Shown piece by piece: positions 29,524-30,263 of a stretch of DNA of 32,835 bases; the stretch's first letter is position 1, and every line of letters starts with the position of its first letter. The stretch spans positions 1 to 32,835 of the forward strand of contig JAHIOX010000020.1 of the NCBI GenBank assembly GCA_018895015.1, in the 5' to 3' direction. This DNA is from Patescibacteria group bacterium. Lineage in GTDB: Bacteria > Patescibacteriota > Minisyncoccia > UBA9983. The notes under the pieces were generated by a model that saw only the letters and a program-made list of their open reading frames with translations, was not told the origin of the DNA and made no database searches. Position numbers and translations under genes: made by a program.

Positions 29524-30234
29524 TTAGCCTTTTTCCCCATGAAAAGCAACAGCGAAGGACCGTCCTTCGCTGGCTTCGCTTTCTAACCATTCATCTATAA
29601 AATTTTCAAATTCTTTAAAATTTTCAAAATATTCTGGAAACACAGATTTATTTAAAATATCCATATTCTTATTGTTGTCTGTCACATAATTAAGATAACT
29701 GGAATATTTATATTTGTCTAAATATTGTCTGGTTTTTGCTTTGTCAGTAATGCCATTTTCTTTCCAATTAGGATCAATCAATTTAACGGGATTTAAATGG
29801 ATATAAGAAAGCAGATATTTAAGATATCTATCGGTATTTGCATGCGTTGCTTTAAAATTATTTTCAAATAATGACCCGCTTCGTTCATATTTTTTATTAT
29901 AATACATTGAATAACCGGTCAATAATTTTTTCATAAATAAACTTATCCCATTTTCTTGTTTTTCTCGAATAAGCAGATGAAAGTGGTTAGGAATAAGACA
30001 ATATGCTCCAATATCTGTTATTTGTTCCCCTCGTTCAATATCAAATATCTCCGCGAAGGACCGTCCTTCGCTGAAATGCTTGCTTATGTCAACGGGGTTA
30101 GCGCTGTTGCAAATATAAAGCAAAGCTAAAAAACGATTATAATCATTTGATTGATTAAAAATAATTCTTTTATCGGTTCCCCTGTTATACAAATGATAAA
30201 ATTCTCCGATAGAAAACTGGAATTTGCGTCTCAT
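29524..30234 (-). CDS. REP-associated tyrosine transposase (RAYT, Y1/HUH transposase family)
   Basis: FYHLYNRGTDKRIIF, YCLIPNHFHLLIREK (HUH motif HFH), MKKLLTGYSMYYNKKYERSGSLFENNFKA, YLKYLLSYIHLNPVK. Confidence 0.93.
   Translation of the reverse strand: MRRKFQFSIGEFYHLYNRGTDKRIIFNQSNDYNRFLALLYICNSANPVDISKHFSEGRSFAEIFDIERGEQITDIGAYCLIPNHFHLLIREKQENGISLFMKKLLTGYSMYYNKKYERSGSLFENNFKATHANTDRYLKYLLSYIHLNPVKLIDPNWKENGITDKAKTRQYLDKYKYSSYLNYVTDNNKNMDILNKSVFPEYFENFKEFENFIDEWLESEASEGRSFAVAFHGEKG
29551..29571. repeat. REP-like palindrome AGCGAAGGACCGTCCTTCGCT, copy 1 (inside the RAYT C-terminal coding region)
   Basis: 10-bp perfect inverted repeat around 1 central base; identical to 30243-30263. Confidence 0.95.
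30052..30072. repeat. REP-like palindrome, copy 2 (internal to RAYT CDS; CGCGAAGGACCGTCCTTCGCT)
   Basis: 20 of 21 positions identical to the other copies. Confidence 0.95.
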
Positions 30235-30242
30235 ATAAGCGT

Positions 30243-30263
30243 AGCGAAGGACCGTCCTTCGCT
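30243..30263. repeat. REP-like palindrome, copy 3 (just upstream of the RAYT start codon)
   Basis: AGCGAAGGACCGTCCTTCGCT, 8 nt separate it from the RAYT start codon ending at 30234. Confidence 0.95.

Follow-up and report, generated by a model that had tools for sequence, protein, structure and literature searches.

We know of sparse direct evidence on the targets of RAYTs, the transposases thought to copy REPs, and of no enzyme established as mobilising the RPE-like palindromes found in coding sequences. RAYTs and their flanking REPs have been described as coevolving (Nunvar et al. 2010, PMC2817692), and REPs have been reported inside ORFs, including that of DNA polymerase I, in a paper that also recalls the RPEs of Rickettsia (De Nocera et al. 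2013, PMC3733652). In genes of tnpA-REP subclass 2.4, in-frame REPs lie generally between the HuH and Y motifs, within a variable extension, and no REP was reported near subclass 2.1, which has the motifs NH[YF]H, FQ or W[EQ] and Y[IV]HLNP and a median length of 238 amino acids (Quentin et al. 2018, PMC6006769). A literature search that omitted most subscription journals returned no paper on such elements in Patescibacteria.

In this work we analysed a stretch of 32,835 nucleotides of a patescibacterial genome (hereafter the window), which contains a RAYT-like gene. The original prediction held that this gene carries three copies of one palindrome, two of them in frame in its own ORF, and that the window holds no others. 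Positions and mismatch count were reproduced: AGCGAAGGACCGTCCTTCGCT occurs exactly at 29551-29571 and 30243-30263 and with one mismatch (CGCG...) at 30052-30072, and no further copy with up to three mismatches is present in the window, where shuffled sequences would lead one to expect 0. Translation of the 236-codon ORF agreed with the prediction that the intragenic copies start at codons 55 and 222 and are both read as SEGRSFA. The features of the locus are as follows.

29524-30234, minus strand: ORF of a RAYT-like Y1 HUH transposase, 236 amino acids, with the Pfam domain Y1_Tnp; homologues within the family are 52-66% identical.
30243-30263, no strand assigned: upstream flanking palindrome, ending 9 nt ahead of the ATG; single-stranded DNA hairpin of -10.2 kcal/mol, z -4.6.
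30052-30072, no strand assigned: internal palindrome, occupying codons 55-61, read as SEGRSFA and lying within the loop that precedes the HUH motif; hairpin of -9.4 kcal/mol; site and phase are kept in homologues, where each copy matches its own flanks.
29551-29571, no strand assigned: 3' flanking palindrome over the end of the ORF, codons 222-228 (SEGRSFA); hairpin of -13.3 kcal/mol.
29977-29985, minus strand: HUH motif HFH, codons 84-86, from the translation.
29788-29805, minus strand: Y motif YIHLNP, codons 144-149, from the translation (motif classes in PMC6006769).
30278-30311, no strand assigned: inverted repeat, perfect over 15 bp and resembling a terminator, located between the transposase gene and the neighbouring ORF and outside the palindrome family.

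All three palindromes fold as single-stranded hairpins far above shuffled sequences, and GCGAAGGACSGTCCTTCGC is the candidate single-stranded target of the transposase; at the homologous locus L144 the variant palindrome is GCGAAGGAGGGTCCTTCGC. Of the two copies predicted as intragenic, the one at codon 55 is indeed internal and precedes the HUH motif. The one at codon 222 is the 3' flank running into the end of the ORF; such an overlap is found in 46 of 83 comparable homologues (the flank-paired genes defined below), the stop codon lying within the copy in 22 of the 83; only the codon-55 copy is therefore truly internal.

The Y1_Tnp profile (PF01797) matched the protein with 31.2 bits against a cut-off of 23 (E 2.6e-07), and the HFH and YIHLNP motifs are those of a single-tyrosine Y1 HUH enzyme. 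The NCBIfam model REP_Tyr_transpos also matched, but with 39.9 bits it fell short of its cut-off of 80. No solved homologue was detectable by sequence, and a single-sequence structure prediction was useless (pLDDT 34.5). The gene is RAYT-like, as had been proposed; it has its own palindrome in frame in the ORF and cognate palindromes on both sides. Its palindromes are not canonical REPs, as which they had been described: the GT[AG]G foot was found at 7 of 166 flank palindromes, against a background of 6.8%, and canonical GTAG REPs were rejected. By motifs and length the protein resembles subclass 2.1 (NHFH, YIHLNP, 236 amino acids and LFEN near the W/F position, compared by eye with Table 1 of PMC6006769), whose members are reported to have no REP-like sequences nearby, whereas this gene has them. 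In-frame REPs within the gene are a trait of subclass 2.4, but the HuH-Y insertion and the YIxNNP motif of that subclass are absent here, the copy at codons 55-61 preceding HuH and the Y motif being YIHLNP.

We gathered 124 homologues from the class, picking start codons by rule; in 83 of them the upstream palindrome recurred downstream, and these were called flank-paired. The best match within each ORF to its own flank palindrome was then compared with the matches found in genes bearing unrelated palindromes. An internal copy beating every unrelated-gene control was present in 45 of the 83 flank-paired genes, the distribution being bimodal, while 12 of 8865 control comparisons reached an identity of at least 0.85. 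As these copies follow their own flanks and differ wholly in sequence from gene to gene, an internal palindrome matching and covarying with the flanks is a common architecture, not a one-off. The idea that a palindrome within the ORF is unusual was thus not supported, the more so as subclass 2.4 offers a precedent (PMC6006769). In a flank-blind test, the strongest internal palindrome corresponded to the gene's own flanks in 33 of 65 genes, with a mean of 0.35 to the flanks of other genes, and internal palindromes stood above 20 synonymous shuffles in 49 of 123 genes. A Mantel comparison of flank and internal arms gave r = 0.98; we do not use this value as evidence, since selecting the internal copy by its flank match makes it partly circular.

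Most of the closest homologues carry a palindrome at each of three places, namely upstream, in the same internal loop and at the 3' end; the copies are alike within a gene and different between genes, and in close pairs such as L143/L151 and L140/L161 (both 71% identical) all three changed alike. The homologues do not encode the same heptapeptide by different DNA; nucleotides and peptides both differ, each following its own flanks, in keeping with the original prediction. The centre of the internal copy lies at codons 53-71, before the HUH motif, in 41 genes and at codons 94-96, just after it, in 4, and its phase is constant within the clade of the window's gene. On the tree, presence of an internal copy requires at least 15 changes, compared with 28 when labels are shuffled, so that it is clustered, yet has been repeatedly gained or lost. 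Among seven flank-paired genes that belong to other classes of the phylum, two had an internal copy; none was found in proteobacterial and other outgroup RAYTs, where just two flank-paired genes are too few for a conclusion.

Some genes show further arrangements. In a RAYT subclade (L202, L205, L214, L215, L217, L219, L226, L233 and L237) the internal palindrome lies just after the HUH motif, at about codon 90-96. The flanks of L180, L186, L173, L242 and L177 are composite, with two nested palindromes resembling the double hairpins of REPINs, and the internal copy of L242 is composite too. In the RAYT of genome G010 (L361:460-1194) the internal copy, CTTGGAGGC, is unlike both flanks, CTTGGAAGC, and it is this internal variant that the copy in the triosephosphate isomerase (TPI) gene of the same genome matches.

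The genome from which the window comes (G000; 570,189 bases, draft in 29 contigs, 98% complete) was scanned by pattern search. That the palindrome occurs elsewhere in this genome, as the original prediction supposed, was borne out. Core copies were located only at the RAYT locus, in the TPI gene, as a pair, and in the gene of the NiFe hydrogenase large subunit, as one copy with a 2-mismatch partner; those within genes are all in frame. Six copies with at most one mismatch were counted, five of them in coding sequences (two in the RAYT ORF, the TPI pair and one in the hydrogenase), unlike the abundant and mostly extragenic copies of a RAYT. An unrelated palindrome, ACTTGGAAACTGGATTTCCAAGT, occurs three times at a second RAYT of this genome (L366, G000:C13:80708-82139), the central copy apparently near codon 150.

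In a relative from another genus (G002) the palindrome lies in frame in genes for a 4Fe-4S (Fer4_22) protein, MreC and an O-antigen-ligase/TPR (Wzy_C) protein, with an in-frame variant in IF-2, and the RpiB gene of G005 holds an in-frame one-base variant. The genome of Ca. Kaiserbacteria RIFCSPHIGHO2_01_FULL_58_22 (G384) contains 21 cores, many as inverted pairs, with in-frame host copies including those in DNA polymerase I (PolA), MsrA and a NUDIX gene; its RAYT, 38% identical to that of the window, carries this palindrome in pairs on the 5' and 3' sides and as an internal copy at codon 59. One DNA palindrome thus sits in frame in unrelated functional genes such as those of TPI, hydrogenase, MreC, IF-2 and PolA, as RPEs do. 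Depending on the gene it is read as SEGRSFA, SEGPSFA, AKDGPS, AKDRPS or RRTVLR, and since the same DNA gives different peptides, it is the DNA and not the peptide that the copies have in common. We considered whether palindromes without stops in any of the six frames are selected for and rejected this, as they make up 40% of the total against 42% of shuffled ones; only genes that have an internal copy show some excess of them (51% vs 26%, Fisher p = 0.026).

A second locus with the same behaviour is the TPI loop between CPPF-Y and LGAQ, which we compared in 10 genomes of the window's family. The loop holds a clear palindrome in G000, G001, G004, G007 and G010; in G009 it has a decayed inverted repeat, read by eye, and in four relatives it is palindrome-free. 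The palindromes of the six genomes are all different (genes L004, L316, L318, L322, L323 and L320). In G000 and G010 the TPI palindrome is identical to a RAYT palindrome of the same genome, and in G004 the similarity is 0.87. That of G007 matches a RAYT of G010 and none of the RAYTs found in G007 itself, and no RAYT serving the G001 copy was identified. A fixed loop with changing palindromes can therefore arise without autoregulation.

The original prediction envisaged a peptide insertion of 7 residues, but a comparison of loop lengths among homologues revealed no such net insertion in the RAYTs: palindrome-free homologues have a loop of about equal length, the segment averaging 48.8 residues where an internal copy is present and 45.5 where there is none, and relatives often being equal in length when compared pairwise. 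The idea that 21 nt were simply inserted into the ORF of the RAYT was rejected, as loop lengths differ too little. Some host proteins are longer than their homologues (TPI of G000 by 8 residues, RpiB by 9 and hydrogenase by 5), and no length change accompanies the palindrome in MsrA, the TPI of G007 or the RAYTs. The palindromes may have been inserted and the loops trimmed later, or they may have overwritten existing sequence. In the MsrA gene of G384 (L263:1501-1517) the palindrome covers part of a conserved MsrA segment that is as long as in solved homologues, which looks as though sequence had been overwritten and not inserted.

We consider it reasonably likely that palindromes mobilised by RAYTs settle time and again in permissive loops of coding sequences and undergo homogenisation. 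Chance or an assembly artefact can be set aside with near certainty, even though the genome is a draft in many contigs, since chance would give about 1.7e-5 exact copies of the 17-mer in it, shuffles gave no copies and the pattern recurs in dozens of other genomes. It is also very improbable that the palindrome is kept for a functional loop peptide, with palindromy of the DNA merely following. Close RAYTs do have the loose pattern G-x-(S/P/T)-(F/L) in common at this position, but internal copies match the non-coding DNA that flanks their own gene and their palindromes exceed synonymous shuffles, and conservation at the peptide level was rejected because one palindrome is read as five different peptides in different genes. 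A single ancestral insertion, inherited vertically and without mobility, the three sites being held alike by compensatory selection for transposase binding, would explain why phase and alignment position are kept within clades, and coevolution of flanks and RAYTs has been described (PMC2817692). We nevertheless find this doubtful, as the internal site differs (pre-HUH, or post-HUH at codons 94-96), different host genes hold copies in different genomes, and the palindrome is common to the 38%-identical Kaiserbacteria RAYT.

The competitor that we take most seriously, while still judging it unlikely, makes the internal hairpin a selected self-recognition site: abundant transposase would bind or nick its own gene or mRNA and so sense or limit itself, with the hairpin tracking changes of specificity throughout the class. 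It would account for a position and phase that are constant within clades while the sequence tracks the flanks, for an internal hairpin that is stable alone, and for the occurrence of the pattern across numerous families within the class as well as in the two genes from other classes. Against it, 38 of the 83 flank-paired genes lack an internal copy and have mostly intact-looking ORFs, with repeated loss or gain on the tree, and TPI, which has no evident self-regulatory link, likewise holds changing palindromes in a single loop. This last observation leads us to prefer a permissive loop with turnover over autoregulation for the RAYT loop as well, and we infer that the copies stay alike through replacement and not through selection acting on a regulatory hairpin.

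If permissive loops are indeed occupied and homogenised in this way, a RAYT-like Y1 HUH transposase of patescibacterial type, bounded by its cognate footless palindrome, would be the mobilising enzyme. Palindrome copies, single or as inverted pairs, would spread over the genome and settle in frame in tolerant coding loops, the transposase's own pre-HUH loop being one such site. As specificity drifts, flanking and internal copies would be replaced together, by renewed targeting or by conversion of existing palindromes. Several findings speak against this explanation: the length-neutral palindromes of the RAYTs, MsrA and one TPI are not predicted by simple insertion; the positions occupied are few, as selection for function would likewise predict; and the TPI palindrome of G007 fits a RAYT of G010 and none found in G007. 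Mobile palindromes are nonetheless probably being written into proteins, which suggests that they shape loops even in enzymes as basic as TPI and in IF-2. With in-gene copies that match the flanks, this group would supply natural pairs of transposase and target by the dozen, and the rules of recognition might be read from them; RPE-like coding palindromes are linked here to a candidate transposase encoded by the genome that carries them.

Several described systems resemble this one in part. With tnpA-REP subclass 2.4 (PMC6006769) it shares REPs that both flank the gene and lie in frame within it; there, the REPs are mostly between HuH and Y, form an insertion of variable length, have a GT[AG]G foot and accompany YIxNNP, whereas here they are mostly before HuH, add no clear net length, are footless and accompany YIHLNP. 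The window's protein resembles TnpAY1 subclass 2.1, or TIRYTs (PMC6006769, PMC3733652), in NH[YF]H, F-E/Q, Y[IV]HLNP and a length of about 238 amino acids, but that subclass is reported to be without REP-like sequences, while matching palindromes flank 83 of our 124 genes, and the terminal inverted repeats of TIRYTs are self-complementary in some only (PMC3733652). Rickettsia RPEs and intragenic REPs (PMC3733652) are likewise short in-frame palindromes in diverse functional genes, DNA polymerase I among them; here the palindrome is tied to a RAYT-like gene of the same genome that is itself a carrier. Inverted pairs a few bases apart recall REPINs (PMC3116915), but copies are few (6 in G000 at up to one mismatch, 21 in G384) and many lie within coding sequences. 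New with respect to these systems are the host group, the motifs of a REP-less subclass, the footless palindromes, the pre-HuH site without clear gain in length, the quantified match between internal copy and flanks, and the TPI hotspot.
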